NCBI GenBank assembly: GCA_024398135.1
Contig: CP073750.1
Coordinates: forward strand, 2,418,001 to 2,482,000
Direction of reading: 5' to 3'
DNA: 64,000 bases
Source: a bacterium SCSIO 12643
GTDB lineage: Bacteria > Bacteroidota > Bacteroidia > Flavobacteriales_G > Salibacteraceae
The notes under the pieces were generated by a model. It did not search any database and was not told the origin of the DNA. It saw nothing but the letters and a program-made list of their open reading frames with translations. Position numbers and translations under genes: made by a program. Shown here piece after piece: positions 49,505 through 59,009 of this stretch (its first letter is position 1; every line of letters begins with the position of its first letter).

Positions 49505-51874
49505 ATGGATTTGGTAATTGTGGAGTCGCCTGCAAAGGCAAAAACAATCGAGGGTTTTTTAGGGAAAGGATTTACCGTAAAATCGAGTTACGGACATGTA
49601 AGAGATTTAGCTAAGAAGGGCGTTGCTATTGATATAGAGAATGATTTTGAGCCAAATTATGATGTGCTGCCTGATAAGAAAAAGGTAGTTACAGAATTAA
49701 AAAGTTTAGCAAAGAAATCAGGAATGGTTTGGTTGGCAACGGATGAGGATCGTGAGGGAGAAGCTATATCCTGGCACCTAAGTGAGGTTTTAGGATTAAA
49801 ACCAGAAAATACGAAGCGAATTGTTTTCCATGAGATTACCAAATCTGCAATTCAAAAGGCGATTGATAATCCACGTAACATTGATTTGGATCTTGTAAAG
49901 GCACAACAAGCAAGAAGAGTTTTGGATCGTTTAGTAGGTTTTGAGTTGTCTCCGGTGTTATGGAGAAAAGTAAAACCTTCATTATCTGCTGGACGTGTAC
50001 AATCGGTAACAGTGAGGTTGATTGTAGAGAGAGAACGTGAGATCATTAATTACACTTCTGAAGTATTTTATCGCGTTTCAGCAATATTTAAACTCAAGAA
50101 TGGAAATGCGGTAAAAGCGAATATTCCGGAGAAGTTTAAAACAGAAGAAGAAGCATATCAGTTTTTAGAGAAATGTAAAGATGCGAGTTTTAAGGTAGAG
50201 AGTGTGGTCAGTAAACCATCAAAGAAATCTCCTCCACCACCATTTACAACATCTTCTTTACAACAGGAAGCTTCAAGAAAGCTTGGTTTTTCGGTAAATC
50301 AAACGATGGTCATCGCACAGCGATTGTATGAAGCGGGTAAGATTACTTATATGAGAACAGATTCTTTGAATCTTTCTGATTTAGCTATGAGTGCTTCTCA
50401 AACGACCATTGAATCTAAGTATGGTAACGAGTATTCTAATCCTCGAAAATTTGCAACTAAATCGAAAGGGGCTCAAGAAGCGCACGAGGCCATTCGTCCT
50501 ACATACATGGAGAACGCTACTGTTGAAGGAGACCGAAATGAAGAGCGTTTATATTCATTGATTTGGAAGAGAACAATTGCCTCTCAAATGTCTGATGCAA
50601 GACTTGAGAAGACCACGGTAAAGATTGGAATTAGTCTTGAAGATAGAAAATTCACAGCACAAGGTGAGGTGATCACATTTGATGGGTTTTTAAAGGTATA
50701 TCAAGTAGCTGTAGATGAGGATGCAGAGAGCTCTGTAGACTCAGGAGTACTACCCGTAATGAAAGAAGGAGATGAGCTTGATTTGGATTCTGCACAGGGA
50801 GTTCAGAGATTTACTTTACATCCACCAAGATATTCAGAGGCAAGTTTGGTAAAGAAACTCGAAGAGTTAGGTATCGGACGACCATCTACGTATGCACCAA
50901 CCATTTCTACTATTCAGAAAAGAGGTTATGTTGAAAAGAAATCTACTGATGGAAATGTCAGAGACTATAAAGTTATTGAAGTAAATCCTTCAGGTATAGA
51001 AGTGATTACTAAACAGGAAACCACAGGTAAGGAAAAGAATAAGCTTTTTCCAACGGATATAGGTAGTGTGGTAAATGACTTTTTGATTGAGCATTTTGAG
51101 AATATTCTTGATTTTAATTTTACTGCTGACGTAGAGCGTGAATTTGATGAAATTGCGGATGGACGTGTTTCATGGAATAAAATGATTGAAGACTTTTATT
51201 CGGATTTTCATAGTAAGGTAGAAGATACGATTGAAAATAGTGAGCGAGCTACAGGAGAGAGGTTGTTAGGAGAAGATCCTGCAACAGGAAAGCCAGTATA
51301 TGCACGTATTGGACGTTTTGGTCCAATGATTCAAATTGGAGATGTTGATGATGAAGAGAAACCGAAATTCACTTCATTGTTGCCAGGAATGAGTATCTCA
51401 AGTGTCACATTTGAAGAAGCGATGGATCTATTCAAGCTTCCAAGATTGTTAGGTGAGTATGAAGGCAAGAAGTTATATGCTTCTATTGGTCGTTTTGGAC
51501 CATACTTAAGATTAGGAAGTCTTTTTGTAAGTATAAAAGAAGCTAATGGAGATGATCCATACACTATTACTTATGATAGAGGAGCAGAATTGATCAAAGA
51601 AAAGATAGAGGCGGATAAGAAAGCATTGCTTAAGACATTTGATGAGGATGAGGAGTTGCGTATTATAGAAGGTCGATATGGACCATATATAAAACAAGCA
51701 AAAAGCAATTATAAAATTCCAAAAGGAACAGATCCGATGAGCTTGACTTATGAAGATTGTTTGGAGCTAATTGCTAAACAGCCTAAGAAAACAAAAGCTA
51801 AAAAAACTACAACGAAGAAAAAGGCGACTACAAAAAAGAAGACTACAAAAGCAAAAGCAGCAAGTAAAAAGTAG
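49505..51874 (+). CDS. topA: DNA topoisomerase I
   Basis: Type IA topoisomerase that relaxes negative supercoils. The 789-aa protein starts MDLVIVESPAKAKTIEGFLG (TOPRIM, 1-115, with the acidic DEDREGEAISWHL cluster), has the catalytic Tyr282 in KITYMRTDSLNLS, GRPSTYAPTISTIQKRGYV near 460-480, and topoisomerase C-terminal repeats from about 590 (RFGPMIQIGD, GRFGPYLRLG, GRYGPYIKQ). No Cys-type zinc fingers are seen. The last ~30 residues are a Lys/Thr/Ala tail like those of histone H1 tails. It is followed after nine bases by the arginase-fold gene. Confidence 0.96.
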   Translation: MDLVIVESPAKAKTIEGFLGKGFTVKSSYGHVRDLAKKGVAIDIENDFEPNYDVLPDKKKVVTELKSLAKKSGMVWLATDEDREGEAISWHLSEVLGLKPENTKRIVFHEITKSAIQKAIDNPRNIDLDLVKAQQARRVLDRLVGFELSPVLWRKVKPSLSAGRVQSVTVRLIVEREREIINYTSEVFYRVSAIFKLKNGNAVKANIPEKFKTEEEAYQFLEKCKDASFKVESVVSKPSKKSPPPPFTTSSLQQEASRKLGFSVNQTMVIAQRLYEAGKITYMRTDSLNLSDLAMSASQTTIESKYGNEYSNPRKFATKSKGAQEAHEAIRPTYMENATVEGDRNEERLYSLIWKRTIASQMSDARLEKTTVKIGISLEDRKFTAQGEVITFDGFLKVYQVAVDEDAESSVDSGVLPVMKEGDELDLDSAQGVQRFTLHPPRYSEASLVKKLEELGIGRPSTYAPTISTIQKRGYVEKKSTDGNVRDYKVIEVNPSGIEVITKQETTGKEKNKLFPTDIGSVVNDFLIEHFENILDFNFTADVEREFDEIADGRVSWNKMIEDFYSDFHSKVEDTIENSERATGERLLGEDPATGKPVYARIGRFGPMIQIGDVDDEEKPKFTSLLPGMSISSVTFEEAMDLFKLPRLLGEYEGKKLYASIGRFGPYLRLGSLFVSIKEANGDDPYTITYDRGAELIKEKIEADKKALLKTFDEDEELRIIEGRYGPYIKQAKSNYKIPKGTDPMSLTYEDCLELIAKQPKKTKAKKTTTKKKATTKKKTTKAKAASKK

Positions 51875-51883
51875 AAAGCATTT

Positions 51884-53050
51884 GTGATGGACATATCTAT
51901 ATATTTTACACCCATTTCTCATTCACAAGAAGACTACTATAAAGAGCAGTTAGGAGGGAACATTGATGCATACTTTTCAGAGGATGATTTCCCAGATTGG
52001 AAAGAGTCTGAAATAATTTTAATCGGAGTTAAAGAAGAAAGAGGTTCGATTCGCAATTCCGGTTGTGGATTGGGAGCGGATAACATTCGAAAGAAATTGT
52101 TTAAGCTCTTTTTTGATATGCCTCCACAAATGACAGATTTAGGTAATATTCTTCCTGGAGAGACTCTAGAGGATACTTATTTTGCCGTACAATCCTGTAT
52201 AGACACATTAATCAAGGCAGGAAAGACTATTGTGTTATTAGGTGGGAGTCAGGATTTAACGATCCCTTTATATAAAGGATATGAAAATACGGAGCAATTA
52301 GTTAATCTAACAACAATTGATCACGCATTTGATATAGGAGAGGCTACGGACGGACCTGTTAATTCAGAGACTTATCTGAGCCAAATATTATTACACCAAC
52401 CTAGTTTTCTGTTTAATTATGCAAACCTGGGGTATCAAACGTATTTTGGGTCACCTAATATTATAGATCTGATTGATAAGTTGTTTTTTGATAAAATGCG
52501 TTTAGGAGCTATTCGGGGTAATATTCGAGATTCTGAGCCGATCATCAGAAACTCTGATATAATTAGTATTGATGTGGCTTCAATTCAAGCTGCAGATATG
52601 CAAGGGTGCGAAAGATCAACTCCCAATGGATTATTGCCTGATGAGGCTTGTCAGTTGACCAGATATGCAGGGTTAAGCGAAAAGGTTTCGTGTTTTGGTG
52701 TGTTTGAGTACAATCCTAGGTTAGATAATAATGGGAACTCAGCTCTATTAGTCGCACAAATGATATGGTATTTTATCGAAGGTTATACCAATAGAAGAAA
52801 CGAAGTGCCGAAACCTAGCGATGAAAATTATTTGAAATATCGTGTTCCGGTTACAGGAGCTGATGATGATCTTATTTTTTATAAAAGCCTAAGAACGGAT
52901 CGTTGGTGGATGCTGGTGCCTTATCCGGATGCCAAGTCAAATAGATATCGAAGATTAAATATGGTGCCTTGTTCTTATCAGGATTACCTGGTAGCGGGGC
53001 AGGATGAATTGCCGGAATTATGGGTGAAGACCTATCGGAAATTTTTATAA
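51884..53050 (+). CDS. Arginase/formimidoylglutamase-fold protein with altered metal site
   Basis: A 388-aa ureohydrolase-fold protein. Aligning to the family's three metal motifs, GGxHS reads GGSQD (120-124, His to Gln at 123), DAHxD reads DHAFD (146-150, metal-binding His position becomes Ala) and DxDxxDP reads DVASIQA (230 on, second Asp to Ala at 232). Three of six manganese ligands are therefore lost, so a normal arginase or formimidoylglutamase reaction is unlikely. The fold features are intact (IILIGVKEERGSIRNSGCGLGADNIRKKL). It lies nine bases after topA and 133 before the PorP/gld cluster. Calling it an active hutG would be wrong on this evidence; a binding or structural role is possible. 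Confidence 0.8.
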   Translation: MMDISIYFTPISHSQEDYYKEQLGGNIDAYFSEDDFPDWKESEIILIGVKEERGSIRNSGCGLGADNIRKKLFKLFFDMPPQMTDLGNILPGETLEDTYFAVQSCIDTLIKAGKTIVLLGGSQDLTIPLYKGYENTEQLVNLTTIDHAFDIGEATDGPVNSETYLSQILLHQPSFLFNYANLGYQTYFGSPNIIDLIDKLFFDKMRLGAIRGNIRDSEPIIRNSDIISIDVASIQAADMQGCERSTPNGLLPDEACQLTRYAGLSEKVSCFGVFEYNPRLDNNGNSALLVAQMIWYFIEGYTNRRNEVPKPSDENYLKYRVPVTGADDDLIFYKSLRTDRWWMLVPYPDAKSNRYRRLNMVPCSYQDYLVAGQDELPELWVKTYRKFL

Positions 53051-53108: not shown

Positions 53109-53138
53109 TTTGATAAGAAGAATATTTATATACTTTAG
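53109..53138 (+). promoter_or_regulatory. Weak candidate promoter of the porP-gldKLMN cluster
   Basis: TTTG (53109-53112), an 18-base spacer, then TACTTTAG (53131-53138), one mismatch from TAnnTTTG. The ATG is 45 bases downstream. Confidence 0.35.
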
Positions 53139-53183: not shown

Positions 53184-54179
53184 ATGATGAAAAAGTTACT
53201 TGTGTTTATAGGGTTTGTAGGCAGTTTAGGCTTACTACAGGCTCAGCAATACCCCCAATTTACTGTGGGTCAGTATCAAGGTTTAGCATACCAAAACCCT
53301 GCTGTTGTGGGTAGCCATGACGCAATTTGTGCCACTCTTTTGGGTAGATTACAATGGGTCGGATTTGGTGGCGAGCCGTCAACATTCCTTTTTTCGGCAC
53401 AGTCTCCTTTTGAATTTCATGGATCACATGGTGTAGGGCTGACGGTAATGTCTGACCAATTAGGACAAGAAACTACCATGGTAGCAAAGTTGAGTTATGC
53501 TTATAGATATTCTGGTTTAGGCCCTGGGACTTTAAGTGCAGGGATTGGTATAGGTTATATCTCAAAATCTATTGGTTCGGATTGGGTAGCAAGTCAAGGA
53601 GTAATTGATGATCCTTCTATTCCTGTAAACGGAGCTTCAGAAGGAGGTTTGGATATGGATTTCGGTTTGTATTATAAGATTCCAAAGAAATTATCTATTG
53701 GATTATCTTCAACACATCTAACCGCTTCTAAGTTTAATCAAACATTGGACGATAAAATTGGTTCTGGTGATTCTAGACAGTTTAACTATCAAATTGACAG
53801 AACATATTATTTATCTGCTCAATATGAAACTCAAATAGGCCAAAGCGGTGATTGGGTATTGAAACCAGGTTTGTTTGTGAAGTCTGACGTGGCTTCAACA
53901 ACGTTCTCTTTAGGAGGTTTTATGGAGTATCAGGAACAATTTTGGGGAGGGATCCATTATAGACTTCAGGATGCAGTGTCTCTGATGTTAGGGGCTAACT
54001 TCCAAATGAACGGTGAGAATGCTGCAGGAGGACTTCTAAAAGTAGGTTACTCATACGACTTTACAACTTCAAACATTAGAAACTTTAGTTCAGGTTCACA
54101 TGAACTTTTCGTAAGATATTGCTTTAATATTTCTAAACAACCAAAGCAACAACAACACCATACAGTGCGATTTTTATAG
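53184..54179 (+). CDS. PorP/SprF family T9SS outer-membrane protein
   Basis: A 331-aa outer-membrane barrel with signal peptide MMKKLLVFIGFVGSLGLLQA. The family start QQYPQFTVGQYQGLAYQNPAVVGSHDAICATLLGRLQWVGFGGEP matches the conserved N-terminus of PorP/SprF proteins, which anchor T9SS substrates such as SprB and connect to PorK/GldK. Strands rich in Gly and aromatic residues alternate to the end. In this position, immediately before gldK, it is the cluster's SprF-type component; further PorP/SprF paralogues are usual elsewhere in such genomes (established for the family). Confidence 0.92.
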   Translation: MMKKLLVFIGFVGSLGLLQAQQYPQFTVGQYQGLAYQNPAVVGSHDAICATLLGRLQWVGFGGEPSTFLFSAQSPFEFHGSHGVGLTVMSDQLGQETTMVAKLSYAYRYSGLGPGTLSAGIGIGYISKSIGSDWVASQGVIDDPSIPVNGASEGGLDMDFGLYYKIPKKLSIGLSSTHLTASKFNQTLDDKIGSGDSRQFNYQIDRTYYLSAQYETQIGQSGDWVLKPGLFVKSDVASTTFSLGGFMEYQEQFWGGIHYRLQDAVSLMLGANFQMNGENAAGGLLKVGYSYDFTTSNIRNFSSGSHELFVRYCFNISKQPKQQQHHTVRFL

Positions 54180-54250
54180 TATAATTTATAATAATACTGT
54201 TTAATACACGTTTATCCACTTAGATTTTGACGATCAAAAAACATAATAAC

Positions 54251-55564
54251 ATGAGACGATTATTATTATTTTTAACAATAGCAACTTTTGTGGCTTCATG
54301 CGCATCGGGAGATGGGGGGCAGCTGACGGGAGTGCAGAACCGACCGGCATGGTTTGATATAGACCCTTATGGTATGGCATATATTCCGATGGGAAGTTTT
54401 GTCATGGGGGAAAATGATCAGGATGTGCCTTATGCGAATGTGGCTTTATCAAGAACTGTTTCTTTGGCTGCTTTCTACATAGATGATTCTGAGATTACAA
54501 ATAATGAGTATCGTCAGTTTGTATATTGGGTGAGAGATTCTATCGCTAGAACTTACTTATTAGAAGTTGATGAGGTAGAGTATGGAATTACTTTAGATGC
54601 ATTTGGAAACGATTTAGATGAACCACGTATTTCTTGGGATTATGAAATTCCTTGGAATGATGAAAACGAAGATTTAAGAGATGCACTGGAACCAATGTTC
54701 TATTCTGAAAGTGACCGTTACTATGGAAAGAAACATATTGATATCACTAAATTGAGATTTCAATATAGCTGGATTGATTATAAGATGGCTGCACGTAAAG
54801 GGCGTCAACGTCACTATATTCAGGATGACTATCAATATAGTCGTGCTGATTTCATTAGAGAAGATGAAGTAGATGTTTACCCAGATACATTGGTATGGAT
54901 AGCGGATTTCTCTTATTCGTATAATGAGCCAATGGCACAAATGTATTTCTGGCACCCGGCTTATGACTACTATCCAGTTGTTGGTGTAACATGGAAACAA
55001 GCTAAAGCATTTAGTCACTGGAGAACCAGATACTTTAATGATGCATTAGATATGGCAGGATTGCCATTAGTGCAAGATTTTAGATTACCAACTGAAGCAG
55101 AATGGGAGTATGCTGCACGTGGTGGACTGGCTGTTTCTCAATATCCTTGGGGTGGGCCATATATCAGAAACGATGCCGGTTGTTTTCTGGCTAACTTTAA
55201 GCCTTTAAGAGGGAATTATGTTGATGATGGCGGTTTCCAAACGGTAAACGTTTATTCATATTCGCCAAATGACTATGGTTTATACTGTATGTCTGGTAAT
55301 GTGGCAGAGTGGACAAACAATGCGTATAGTGAGTCAGCGTACGAGTTTAATCATGATATGAATTCAGATTATCAATATGAAGCCGAAGATGATGAGCAAC
55401 CTGTATATAAAAGAAAGGTTATTCGTGGAGGTTCATGGAAAGATGTAAGTTATTATTTAGGAGTAGGTGTTAGATCATATGAATACCAGGATACAGCGAA
55501 ATGCTACATTGGATTTAGAAATGTGATGTCTTACTTGGGTCGCGCGAAAGGTGACGAATTATAG
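54251..55564 (+). CDS. gldK: Gliding-motility/T9SS lipoprotein GldK (PorK-like)
   Basis: A 437-aa outer-membrane lipoprotein that with GldN forms the T9SS periplasmic ring. The signal ends in FVASC with lipidated C17. The rest is a formylglycine-generating-enzyme (SUMF1) fold: MAYIPMGSFVMGENDQDVP, YIDDSEITNNEYRQFVYWV, VVGVTWKQAKAFSHWR, FRLPTEAEWEYAARGG, GNVAEWTNNAYSE and VIRGGSW. An inserted acidic stretch (~100-200) is typical of GldK. The in-frame TTG at 54227 is rejected in favour of the ATG at 54251, which begins the signal peptide. It is followed by gldL, gldM, gldN. Confidence 0.95.
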   Translation: MRRLLLFLTIATFVASCASGDGGQLTGVQNRPAWFDIDPYGMAYIPMGSFVMGENDQDVPYANVALSRTVSLAAFYIDDSEITNNEYRQFVYWVRDSIARTYLLEVDEVEYGITLDAFGNDLDEPRISWDYEIPWNDENEDLRDALEPMFYSESDRYYGKKHIDITKLRFQYSWIDYKMAARKGRQRHYIQDDYQYSRADFIREDEVDVYPDTLVWIADFSYSYNEPMAQMYFWHPAYDYYPVVGVTWKQAKAFSHWRTRYFNDALDMAGLPLVQDFRLPTEAEWEYAARGGLAVSQYPWGGPYIRNDAGCFLANFKPLRGNYVDDGGFQTVNVYSYSPNDYGLYCMSGNVAEWTNNAYSESAYEFNHDMNSDYQYEAEDDEQPVYKRKVIRGGSWKDVSYYLGVGVRSYEYQDTAKCYIGFRNVMSYLGRAKGDEL

Positions 55565-55610
55565 AAAAATTATCCATTAAAAATAAATATTAAAACACAA
55601 TTTAGAGATT

Positions 55611-56429
55611 ATGAGCAAGGAAATTACAGGGTTTAGACCGGGGAGTAAGAGTTGGAAAAACTTCATGAAGTACGTTTATGGATGGGGTGCAGCAATTGTT
55701 ATTGTTGGAGCTCTTTTTAAACTACAACACTATCCTGGATCTGGTCCAATGTTGATTATTGGTTTGGGTACTGAGGCAATTATTTTCTTTTTATCTGCGT
55801 TTGACCCAATGCACGAAGATCCAGATTGGTCTTTGGTATATCCAGAATTAGCTGAGGATTATAATGGTGACCCTCGTGGTATTGTTACCGGTGGTGGTTC
55901 GGGATCTTCTTCTACACAAGAATTGGACTCGATGTTAGAAGAAGCTAAAATCGGAAGTGAACTGATTGAAAGTCTAGGTGCTGGAATGAGAAATTTAGCT
56001 GAAACAGCAAACAATATGAATAATTTAGGAGACGCTTCTGCTGCAACAAATAGCTTTGTTGAAAGTGTAGAAGGTGCTGCTAAAAATGTGGGTGAGTTAT
56101 CGGATTCGTATCACCATGCTGCTGAAGCTTTGACCGGTTTATCTGTTTCTAACGAAGATGGAGCTACATACGCTGAGAACTTAAAAAGAGTAAGTGAGAA
56201 CCTATCTGCGTTAAACAGTGTATATGAAATGCAATTAGAAAACTCAACAAATCAAGTGAATGTAAGTAGCCAAATGTTTGAGAACATGCAAACTTTGGTA
56301 AATAACTTGAATGATTCAGTTGAGGATACAAAACGTTATAAAGAAAATATTGCTGAATTATCAACTAACTTAGAGTCATTGAATACAGTATATGGAAATA
56401 TGCTATCTGCAATGAACGTTAACCGCTAG
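55611..56429 (+). CDS. gldL: Gliding-motility/T9SS motor protein GldL
   Basis: The 272-aa inner-membrane partner of GldM in the proton-motive-force-driven T9SS motor. Two membrane helices lie near the N-terminus, KYVYGWGAAIVIVGALFKLQHYPG (about 20-43) and MLIIGLGTEAIIFFLSAFDP (~47-66); the KLQHYPGSG turn and the helix-embedded Glu in GTEAIIFF are conserved in GldL. A long cytoplasmic coiled-coil region rich in NNLxxxx heptads (~110-265) follows. It is 46 bases after gldK and 44 before gldM, all on the same strand. Confidence 0.95.
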   Translation: MSKEITGFRPGSKSWKNFMKYVYGWGAAIVIVGALFKLQHYPGSGPMLIIGLGTEAIIFFLSAFDPMHEDPDWSLVYPELAEDYNGDPRGIVTGGGSGSSSTQELDSMLEEAKIGSELIESLGAGMRNLAETANNMNNLGDASAATNSFVESVEGAAKNVGELSDSYHHAAEALTGLSVSNEDGATYAENLKRVSENLSALNSVYEMQLENSTNQVNVSSQMFENMQTLVNNLNDSVEDTKRYKENIAELSTNLESLNTVYGNMLSAMNVNR

Positions 56430-56473
56430 TAGTTAAAATTTAATTAAAGTAAAGTTTAAAAGTATAATAGACT

Positions 56474-58135
56474 ATGGCTGGTGGTAAGGAAACGCCAAGG
56501 CAGAAGATGATTGGTATGATGTACCTGGTTCTTCTTGCATTATTGGCAATGAATGTTACAAAATCTGTTTTGAACTCTTTTGTGATTATCAATGGGGCGA
56601 TGACAGAAACAAATGAGGCTTTTGCACAAAAGAATGAGGCTACTATGGCTGAGTTCGCTTCGCAAAATTCTCAAAATGAAGCTAAAGTTTTGCCTTTCTA
56701 TAATAAGGCAAAAGCAGTTCATAAAGCTTCTCAAGAGTTAGATAAGTACTTTGAGGATTTGAAAAAGCATATCATTTCCAAAGTTGAAGGTTATGATCCA
56801 GCTTTGTTGGAAGGGAATACGGATTGGATCACGTTAGATACTGTTCAGGCACTTGGAGACATCGATATGGCACAGACCATTATGATTGGACCGGATTTAG
56901 GAACTCCTAAAAGCGGTGAATGGACGATGCTTGAGATGAAAGACAAGATCAAAGAGTGGGAAGATATCGTTATTAGCCAATTTCCAAAAAGTCAACAAGC
57001 AAGTTTGGAAGATATTCGTTTTGAGTATAAGGATGGTGTAGATAAGGATGGAAATCCTGAGCCTTGGCATCAAGCGCACTTTTATCATGCGCCAATTGCA
57101 GCGGTTATTACAGATATTACTATGTTCCAGAATCAAGTAAAAAACTCTGAATCAAGAGCTTTAGGTTTGTTAATGGACAATATTGATGCAGGAGACTTTA
57201 AATTCTCAAACATTGAAGTTAAGGTTATTCCTAAATCAAATTATGTAGTATTGGGTGATTCTTTTAAAGCACAATTAATTGTTGCGGCATACGATACGAC
57301 TCAACCTCCCGTTGTTATAACTGGATCTGAATTGGATACAGCAGGTAAAGCAATGGCTGATTGGGGTGTGAAGAATGCATTTGATTCAAATAGAGTATCC
57401 ATTGTAGATGGTGTTGCGCAATACGGTTTTAAGCCAACCTCTGAAGGAGAGCAAAAATGGGGCGGTATTGTAAAACTGAAAAAGCCTGGGACAAACGAGT
57501 ATAATTTCTATCCGTTCGAAAGTACATTTATCGCAGCGAAAGCTTCAGCGGTTGTTTCTCCTGTAAAGATGAATGTATTCTATCGTGGCGCAAAGAACGA
57601 TGTTGAAGTATCGGTAGCAGGTTTTTCTGCTAGTAAAGTGGATATTCAGGTTACCAATGCGACAAAGACAGGGTCTAATGGTAAATATATTGTAAAGCCA
57701 GGTCAGGGACGTGAGTGTTCTGTTACGGTTTATGTAACGAAGGACGATGGTTCTAAAATTAAGGTTGGAGAAGCAAGAAAGTTTAGAGTTGAGCCAATTC
57801 CACCAGCAACACCTAAGTTTGCTACTGTTGCAGGTTCTGGTAAAGTAACTAAAGCTCAGGTTTTAGCTTCAGGTAAAGTAACTGCTAAATTAGAAAACTT
57901 CTTATTGAATGATGAATCTTTAAAAGTAAAAGTAACAGCTTTTACAATGAAGGTTCCGGTAAAAGGAAAGTATATCCCTTATAGATCGAAAAATGATAAG
58001 GTAACACCACAGATGAAGACTGCATTGAAAAACTTACGTAAGGGATCTGTAATCATCATTGATGGTATTAAAACCAGTACTGGAGGCCAACCGGAAAAAG
58101 GTATTAAAGGGAATATAATTGTAGAAATTAAATAA
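56474..58135 (+). CDS. gldM: Gliding-motility/T9SS motor protein GldM
   Basis: The 553-aa periplasm-spanning shaft of the T9SS motor. The start MAGGKETPRQKMIGMMYLVL leads into a single membrane helix (about 12-32, with LVLLALLAMNVTKSVLNSF) and a long periplasmic part made of a helical D1 domain and Ig-like D2-D4 domains, ending RKGSVIIIDGIKTSTGGQPEKGIKGNIIVEI, the usual GldM terminus. The dimeric periplasmic part is expected to contact the GldK/GldN ring (family knowledge). It stands seven bases before gldN. Confidence 0.95.
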   Translation: MAGGKETPRQKMIGMMYLVLLALLAMNVTKSVLNSFVIINGAMTETNEAFAQKNEATMAEFASQNSQNEAKVLPFYNKAKAVHKASQELDKYFEDLKKHIISKVEGYDPALLEGNTDWITLDTVQALGDIDMAQTIMIGPDLGTPKSGEWTMLEMKDKIKEWEDIVISQFPKSQQASLEDIRFEYKDGVDKDGNPEPWHQAHFYHAPIAAVITDITMFQNQVKNSESRALGLLMDNIDAGDFKFSNIEVKVIPKSNYVVLGDSFKAQLIVAAYDTTQPPVVITGSELDTAGKAMADWGVKNAFDSNRVSIVDGVAQYGFKPTSEGEQKWGGIVKLKKPGTNEYNFYPFESTFIAAKASAVVSPVKMNVFYRGAKNDVEVSVAGFSASKVDIQVTNATKTGSNGKYIVKPGQGRECSVTVYVTKDDGSKIKVGEARKFRVEPIPPATPKFATVAGSGKVTKAQVLASGKVTAKLENFLLNDESLKVKVTAFTMKVPVKGKYIPYRSKNDKVTPQMKTALKNLRKGSVIIIDGIKTSTGGQPEKGIKGNIIVEIK

Positions 58136-58142
58136 CAGTATT

Positions 58143-59009
58143 ATGAAGACGCTAAGATTTATCTTTTTGGCTGGATTAATGAGCTTAGGACTAAATGTGT
58201 CCGCTCAGGTATTAGATCCAGGAGCAGAATCTCCGCTTGATGGTGTTTACTCAAAATCTGTAGATACACCACATAAGAGACCGGTTCCATATGTACAATT
58301 AAGAGAGGCTGATATTATGTGGTTGACACGTATTTGGCGAGTTGTAGATATGAGAGAAAAGGTAAATCTGCCTTTCTATTTCCCTCTAAAGCCAACGCAG
58401 GGAAGAAAGAACTTTATGACTGTTATCATGGAAGCGATTGAGCAAGAAAGAATAACAGCATATTCACCTTATGATTCGTCCACGGCTCAGTTTGATGATG
58501 GGTTTAAGATTGCCATGACTACTATGGAGGCAAAGAAGACCTTGACTTATATTACACAAATTGCGGTTGAGAATGAATATGGTGAAGAGGAGTTTAAAGA
58601 CACGGCAAACGAAATCGGATTAGACGAGATTACCAGATTTAAGATTAAAGAAGAAGTTTTCTTTGATAAACAACGTTCTTTAATGGAAACTAGAATTCTG
58701 GGTATTGCGCCTATGATTCCAGATAAAATTGCTGATGATGGTTCGGTAAGGGAAGCATTTTGGATTTATTTCCCAGAAGCGAGATTCGTTTTTGCTGAGG
58801 CTGAGGTTTATAATGTGCACAATGATGTGGACAGAATGACTTACGAAGACTTATTCTGGAAAAGAAAATTCTCTAGTAGAATCGTAAAGAAGTCTAATGT
58901 ATTTGATAGAGCGATTAGTGCATATAAAGGTCCTTTAGATGCTTTGTTAGAGGCTGAAAAGATAGAAGAAGAGATCTTTAATAGAGAGCATGATATTTGG
59001 AGTTTTTAA
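58143..59009 (+). CDS. gldN: Gliding-motility/T9SS ring protein GldN (PorN-like)
   Basis: A 288-aa periplasmic protein with signal peptide MKTLRFIFLAGLMSLGLNVS (cleaved after SA). The blocks LREADIMWLTRIWRVVDMREKVNLPFYFPLKP (about 52-83), IGLDEITRFKIKEEVFFDKQRSLMETRILGIAPM and WIYFPEARFVFAEAEVYNVHNDVDRMTYEDLFWKRKFSSRIVK match GldN. It completes the gldKLMN set, seven bases after gldM, and is followed by a strong terminator. Confidence 0.95.
   Translation: MKTLRFIFLAGLMSLGLNVSAQVLDPGAESPLDGVYSKSVDTPHKRPVPYVQLREADIMWLTRIWRVVDMREKVNLPFYFPLKPTQGRKNFMTVIMEAIEQERITAYSPYDSSTAQFDDGFKIAMTTMEAKKTLTYITQIAVENEYGEEEFKDTANEIGLDEITRFKIKEEVFFDKQRSLMETRILGIAPMIPDKIADDGSVREAFWIYFPEARFVFAEAEVYNVHNDVDRMTYEDLFWKRKFSSRIVKKSNVFDRAISAYKGPLDALLEAEKIEEEIFNREHDIWSF

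Follow-up and report, generated by a model that had tools for sequence, protein, structure and literature searches.

A probable pseudoenzyme of the ureohydrolase fold in most sampled genomes of the class Bacteroidia

Introduction

What does an arginase-fold protein do when half of the ligands of its binuclear metal centre are missing and its gene lies between topA and genes of the type IX secretion system (T9SS)? The locus that raises this question is part of the window, by which we mean the whole stretch of 64,000 nucleotides analysed here from the bacterium SCSIO 12643. A sequence-only reading of this DNA had proposed a conserved, non-catalytic ureohydrolase that could serve as a binding or scaffolding protein next to the T9SS.

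Comparable proteins are on record. Hai et al. (2015) reportedly described a T. brucei arginase-like protein that evolved without the binuclear Mn cluster; likened by its title only, this case shares the missing cluster with ours but is eukaryotic. Mothersole et al. (2022) are said to have found an ornithine decarboxylase/arginase of Fusobacteriaceae whose arginase domain is non-functional in some species. Going by the title, this is a bacterial arginase domain with lost function, but one contained in a combined protein from oral species, whereas the family described here forms a stand-alone protein that occurs across a class. The non-catalytic subunit of metformin hydrolase (MefH-beta or MetCb; 8ryi, 8x3g) resembles our protein as a ureohydrolase-fold pseudoenzyme with a degenerate metal site; according to passages of PMC11399263, four of its six ligands are replaced and it is encoded beside the active subunit, which needs it. 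PMC11271267 describes noncanonical arginases of this sort as having elusive functions.

In the literature considered here, pseudo-ureohydrolases are single cases (the trypanosome protein, metformin hydrolase beta and the fusobacterial domain). The present case is an entire group: it occurs in 364 of 395 sampled genomes of its class, has an extra domain of its own and conserves certain residues more strictly than those of the old metal site. A search of the open-access literature, with most subscription papers outside its scope, found no paper on this arginase-fold family among the matches listed.

Results

The gene and its start

The open reading frame at 51884-53050 on the + strand was confirmed as real. 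A GTG at 51884 stands directly 5' of an ATG at 51887, and we regard the ATG as the better start because the alignment of a relative from the same genus (L034) begins there. In the P0001 numbering, the GTG codon is residue 1; ATG numbering is one residue lower. The gene and its neighbours in the window are as follows.

49505..51874, + strand: topA, ending 12 bp before the ATG of the gene; TIGR01051 match over the cut-off
51887..53050, + strand: gene for the arginase-fold protein, predicted to be non-catalytic; 387 aa from the ATG, 388 aa from the GTG at 51884
53184..59009, + strand: porP-gldK-gldL-gldM-gldN (T9SS), context; NCBIfam models over the cut-off

The neighbours had been named correctly from the letters alone, as TopA (TIGR01051), the PorP family, GldK, GldL, GldM and GldN all scored over the curated NCBIfam cut-offs. 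A gap of 133 bp separates the gene from porP. No RNA family scored above its gathering score in the window.

An arginase fold that falls short of formiminoglutamase

The protein is a member of the arginase/ureohydrolase superfamily by sequence cut-off and by predicted fold. It scored 59.4 bits with the Pfam family Arginase (PF00491; cut-off 22) over residues 43-297, a match beyond chance. An AlphaFold2 model, computed from an alignment of 51 sequences, had a pLDDT of 92.0 and a pTM of 0.92 and superposed on the T. cruzi formiminoglutamase 4myn with a Z score of 37.1 and an rmsd of 2.1 A over 278 residues at 22% identity (VIA-align, model residues 15-304). A Foldseek search with the model returned an arginase-fold match at E 8.2e-19. 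The Pfam score and the predicted model uphold the earlier statement that the fold-defining blocks persist. Two parts of the gene can be told apart.

51923..52798, + strand: arginase-fold part, model residues about 13-304 (ATG numbering)
52799..53047, + strand: family-specific C-terminal domain of about 80 residues, residues 305-387 (ATG numbering), with the patterns F..K..RWW..P, PC..DY..A and P..W

Formiminoglutamase HutG (T. cruzi 4mxr/4myn, B. subtilis 3m1r) offered both the closest fold and the closest NCBIfam model, TIGR01227. The window protein differs from HutG in scoring only 82.2 bits against the curated cut-off of 229.15, in lacking three of the six ligands and in carrying the extra C-terminal domain. 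Because 82 bits is far under 229, TIGR01227 would not assign the name formimidoylglutamase, and the prediction that automatic annotation would do so found no support with this NCBI model, to which the statement is confined. All 51 A2 members matched TIGR01227 at E <= 0.001, the bit score being known for the window protein only.

Metformin hydrolase was found both by profile (8ryi_C, E 3.5e-8) and by fold search. PADLOC defence-system models gave no match at E <= 1. In a viral structure library, the best rows were giant-virus proteins, two of them named arginase, with E-values of 3.1e-11 and weaker; we considered these uninformative.

The binuclear metal site is incomplete throughout the family

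The three metal-binding motifs read GGSQD, DHAFD and DVASI in the window protein, as had been noted from the sequence, and the accompanying count of at least three lost Mn ligands proved to be exactly three replaced and three kept. The six ligand positions are Q123, D146, A148, D150, D230 and A232 (P0001 numbering), which we take to correspond to H101, D124, H126, D128, D232 and D234 of rat arginase I. Site A of that enzyme comprises His101, Asp124, Asp128 and Asp232, and site B Asp124, His126, Asp232 and Asp234. The replacements in the window protein are His101 to Gln, His126 to Ala and Asp234 to Ala: both private ligands of site B (H126 and D234) are gone, and site A keeps its three Asp with Gln in place of His.

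52250..52252, + strand: codon for Gln in place of the site-A ligand His101; Q in 58/76 and H in 8/76 family rows
52319..52333, + strand: DHAFD, with the Asp124 and Asp128 positions kept and Ala at the His126 position (codon 52325-52327), by motif alignment
52571..52579, + strand: D-V-A, with the Asp232 position kept and Ala at the Asp234 position (codon 52577-52579); D in 3/76 family rows at Asp234

The motifs were placed alike in a HMMER alignment to 4mxr and in MAFFT alignments. An alternative alignment that restores the ligands was considered and rejected, as neither His126 nor Asp234 was recovered in the window protein by HMMER to 4mxr or by MAFFT.

The loss extends to the whole family. 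Not one of the 76 aligned family rows has the six ligands of the binuclear centre that mark a catalytic ureohydrolase, and none combines the two ligands exclusive to site B, His126 and Asp234. This count leaves out L001, which the profile did not hit, L002, whose hit was short, and four rows with fragmentary hits (L180, L182, L194 and L195). The three Asp at the D124, D128 and D232 positions are all present in 66 of the 76 rows, and where a ligand is replaced the family has K, R, P, S, G or N, among others. Among 59 orthologue rows, Q123 occurs in 54, D146 in 59, D150 in 57 and D230 in 59. Ordinary relatives from the same phylum carry all six ligands in 12 of 16 cases, and the other four (L163, L167, L175 and L177) are one position off each.

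At the His126 position (P0001 148), where the window protein has Ala, the family has Lys in 26/76 rows and Arg in 16/76 (K/R together 42/76) and His in 3/76. A Lys or Arg at this former site-B position could, judging from the alignment, stand in for the charge of the metal. Two otherwise complete ordinary relatives, L167 and L177, have Asn for the site-A His, and entries of T. cruzi formiminoglutamase include an N114H variant (entry title), suggesting that Asn occupies the same position there.

A C-terminal domain specific to the family

The 16 ordinary relatives show gaps over nearly all conserved positions of the C-terminal domain, with only stray aligned letters, and F332, W341 and C363 of this domain (P0001 numbering) are present in 76 of 76 family rows. 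A profile of the domain found it in the gene of all 41 of 41 relatives and returned nothing else below E 0.138. When modelled alone, the domain reached a pLDDT of 84.6 and was predicted to form four strands and two helices.

A fold search with the domain gave no match at E <= 0.001, and the best row of a second search, a class IV adenylyl cyclase with a Z score of 4.5 (59 residues, rmsd 3.0), was given no weight. Profile comparisons gave weak hints of SH3 (spectrin SH3 at E 0.076; SH3b_P2 in 5/41 members, best 4.1e-4), which the two fold searches did not back up. No SH3 entry was among the fold-search matches listed for the domain, an absence that excludes nothing.

One branch, with constraint away from the old metal site

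In a 55-protein tree, the 38 family rows formed one side of a branch with a support of 98/100, which was present in 100% of 200 bootstrap trees; as the tree is unrooted, calling the family a clade would require a root placed outside the group. On the 38-member family tree, at least six changes affect the three-Asp set, and we read them as losses, in a count in which all 16 ordinary relatives were labelled three-Asp although L163 and L175 lack one. Nine tree rows are without the set, and in L050 and L019 the sole change is Asp128 to Asn. We followed 13 marker residues (F202, R206, E218, P219, R222, C256, W295, F332, W341, W342, C363, Y368 and P377) through these nine rows; six retain 13/13, L181 retains 11/13, and L179 and L196 retain 10/13. 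Because the Asp set was lost repeatedly and the marker residues are mostly unchanged, the old metal site appears not to be what selection holds on to.

Within the genus, pN was 0.10-0.18 and pS 0.75-0.83 in three pairs, which indicates purifying selection. The proposal of a conserved ureohydrolase that is presumably non-catalytic is well supported at the level of sequence by the branch support, the absence of the six-ligand set from all 76 rows and a pN far below pS. The three members with fewer markers, L179, L196 and L181 (from genomes G012, G095 and G178, respectively), evolve very fast and have lost most of the former ligands.

Distribution and co-occurrence with the T9SS

The family profile matched at E <= 1e-20 in 364 of 395 sampled genomes of the class Bacteroidia, and SprA (TIGR04189) was found in 385 of them. 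Both were present in 360 genomes, SprA only in 25, the gene only in four (G002, G327, G492 and G607) and neither in six. In a phylum-wide search, matches from outside the class stop at query residue 319 or earlier and resemble the ordinary relatives.

Among the 25 genomes with SprA only, 17 are at least 90% complete; the rest are incomplete (e.g., G321 72%, G453 68%, G495 60% and G552 52%). GldM was sought in 37 genomes, 23 of them without the gene, and 17 of these 23 had a GldM match, 16 over the cut-off (G359 under). Two of the genomes with the gene but without SprA, G492 (99% complete) and G327 (95%, 130 contigs), showed no GldM either, and G002 and G607 have GldM. In G349 (C31:2804-9811), a full-length SprA match contains three in-frame TGA codons, which would reflect either a gene that is broken, errors in the sequence or recoding in this genome.

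We further sampled the order of locus L112, with a requested completeness of at least 95%. Out of its 199 genomes, 140 had a profile match (in G753 covering the arginase part only) and 185 had GldM. Because the gene is missing from 59 of the 199, it is not indispensable. It was absent from 11 of the 14 genomes without GldM and from 48 of the 185 with GldM. An association between the gene and the T9SS thus exists but is not strict, and it may follow kinship. A core component of the T9SS would be present wherever the system is; the gene is lacking in 25 of the 385 SprA-bearing genomes and is missing in place in three genomes described below.

Gene order and transcription

Among the relatives L034-L062 (n = 29), 28 have topA upstream of the gene, L042 being truncated, and all 29 have a porP match next to it. 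In family f5, the order topA-gene-gldK recurs without a porP match, and in the nine f2 and f9 loci neither neighbour was seen in the 1.5-kb flanks. Across a set of 80 loci, 50 of 77 had topA no more than 1.5 kb upstream of the gene, and 19 of the 65 with enough sequence had gldK no more than 3.5 kb downstream.

Within the 199-genome order, the gene was located at most 4 kb from topA in 99 of the 109 genomes listed with both places and at most 10 kb from gldM in 62 of the 104 listed with both places (median 5.1 kb, 4.2-5.8), where about 0.6% would be expected by chance in a 3.5-Mb genome. These distances ignore strand and exclude G753 as well as the second hit in each of G668 and G693, all of them confined to the arginase part. 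In this order, the gene is tied more to topA than to gldM.

In three genomes of the order without a family match, G630, G686 and G806 (loci L212, L213 and L214), topA is followed by (porP-)gldK-gldL-gldM and the arginase-fold gene is missing in between; the best profile hit in this interval had an E-value of 0.67 and was not counted, and L212 has no porP match. At L098 (7.3-13.7 kb), L122, L129 and other Mucilaginibacter, Sphingobacterium and Parapedobacter loci, neither topA nor gldK stands beside the gene; in the L098 group, it is near epimerase-like and SerB-like genes, named by eye from the L098 translations.

The gap before porP contains a promoter-like motif.

53110..53138, + strand: motif TTG-N18-TANNTTNG, promoter-like, within the gap of 133 bp between the gene and porP

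It fits TTG-N17-23-TANNTTNG, which we take to be the Bacteroidetes promoter consensus. Of 21 gene-porP gaps, 14 contained the motif, where 0.8 would be expected from shuffled sequence and none of 200 shuffles exceeded 4. For the topA-gene gaps, the figures were 4 of 39 with the motif, 0.5 expected and at most 2 in 200 shuffles; the four motif-bearing topA-gene gaps (L090, L099, L137 and L141) are all at least 133 bp long. Both sets of gaps came from 81 sources, with loci lacking a computable gap dropped, and the median of the topA-gene gap (n = 40) includes an artefactual value of -1164 (L066). Because the gene follows topA after 12 bp and precedes porP by 133 bp with a promoter-like motif, it probably shares the transcription unit of topA, and porP-gldKLMN probably starts its own.

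The suggestion of a binding or scaffolding protein next to the T9SS therefore stands in part. The topA-gene-porP-gldKLMN order does recur, but in the one order counted the tie to topA is stronger, the promoter-like motif precedes porP, there are GldM-bearing genomes without the gene, and G492 has the gene without SprA or GldM. The link to the T9SS is weaker than had been implied.

Discussion

A protein that probably works by binding

Because metal ligands are lost and the gene is nevertheless kept in most sampled genomes of the class, it now probably works by binding rather than by hydrolysis. We put the probability of a pseudoenzyme with the ureohydrolase fold that occurs class-wide and acts through binding at about 0.7. 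From sequence we infer both the loss of activity and the binding role, and the N-terminus, in which no signal peptide was seen by eye, suggests a cytoplasmic location. An arginase-fold protein would have arisen once in the class, and a binding role would have replaced hydrolysis. The binuclear metal centre is dismantled, with the private site-B ligands kept together in no member examined; the old pocket retains three Asp in most members and has Lys or Arg at the former site-B His in over half. Constraint falls instead on residues such as F202, E218-P219-xx-R222, G263 and W295 and on the C-terminal domain with F332, W341 and C363, and these residues, together with that domain, may be presented to a protein or small-ligand partner.

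A more specific scenario, possible but doubtful, is an early single recruitment in Bacteroidia as a core cytoplasmic sensor or adaptor, whose emptied, Asp-lined pocket, in many members neutralised by Lys or Arg, would receive a guanidino or other cationic ligand and whose C-terminal domain would signal to a partner in a process beyond topA or the T9SS alone. The conservation of the protein without the ligands of the enzyme points to an unstudied function, and the label 'arginase family' in these genomes should be read with caution and not as arginine metabolism.

The retained Asp residues speak against a purely binding role. With three Asp in 66/76 rows and His at the site-A position in 8/76, the protein might still take up a single metal and retain some chemistry. 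On this basis, the protein could be a mononuclear metalloenzyme in which site A (Gln or His plus the three Asp) holds one metal for a different reaction, and Q in 58/76 rows at the His101 position adds to the picture. We consider this improbable, given that the Asp set was altered six or more times on a tree along which the rest of the family signature is largely preserved, and that Lys, Arg, Pro, Ser, Gly and Asn are among the replacements at ligand positions. Somewhat less probable still is an accessory of the T9SS or gliding motility that acts from the cytoplasm, for instance on the GldL/GldM motor. Its proximity to gldM (62/104 against about 0.6%), the gene order shared by the relatives of the window together with topA-gene-gldK in f5, and the absence of the gene from 11 of 14 GldM-less genomes in one order are what such an accessory would lead one to expect. 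However, the gene is absent from 25 of 385 genomes with SprA (17 of them at least 90% complete), from 17 tested genomes with a GldM match (16 over the cut-off) and from 48 of 185 GldM-bearing genomes of the order; it is missing in place from three otherwise intact topA-(porP)-gldKLM loci, is present in G492, where neither SprA nor GldM was found, and is separated from porP by the promoter-like motif, and the co-occurrence is confounded by kinship. The in-place absence and the presence without a T9SS argue against an essential role in this system, even though the linkage is real.

A role as the non-catalytic subunit of a heteromeric ureohydrolase, similar to metformin hydrolase beta, appears very unlikely. 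Chains of metformin hydrolase are among the close fold matches, the precedent is published (PMC11399263; PMC11271267), and the window's own genome encodes an agmatinase and an arginase-like paralogue. Both paralogues, however, are about 1 Mb away, and the neighbours in the window are topA and porP-gld, where the metformin-hydrolase type has its active subunit encoded alongside. Unlike metformin hydrolase beta, the family can also occur as the sole arginase-family match of its genome. Among 22 genomes with the gene, three (G402, G492 and G760) show a single such match, so that the gene need not pair with an active sister. The 22 genomes were chosen partly for having few candidates, and G110, which was not known to carry the gene, was added and had no match. 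In G760, the position of the single match identifies it as the gene; in G402 and G492, it is taken to be the gene because of its ORF length and because each genome has one profile hit.
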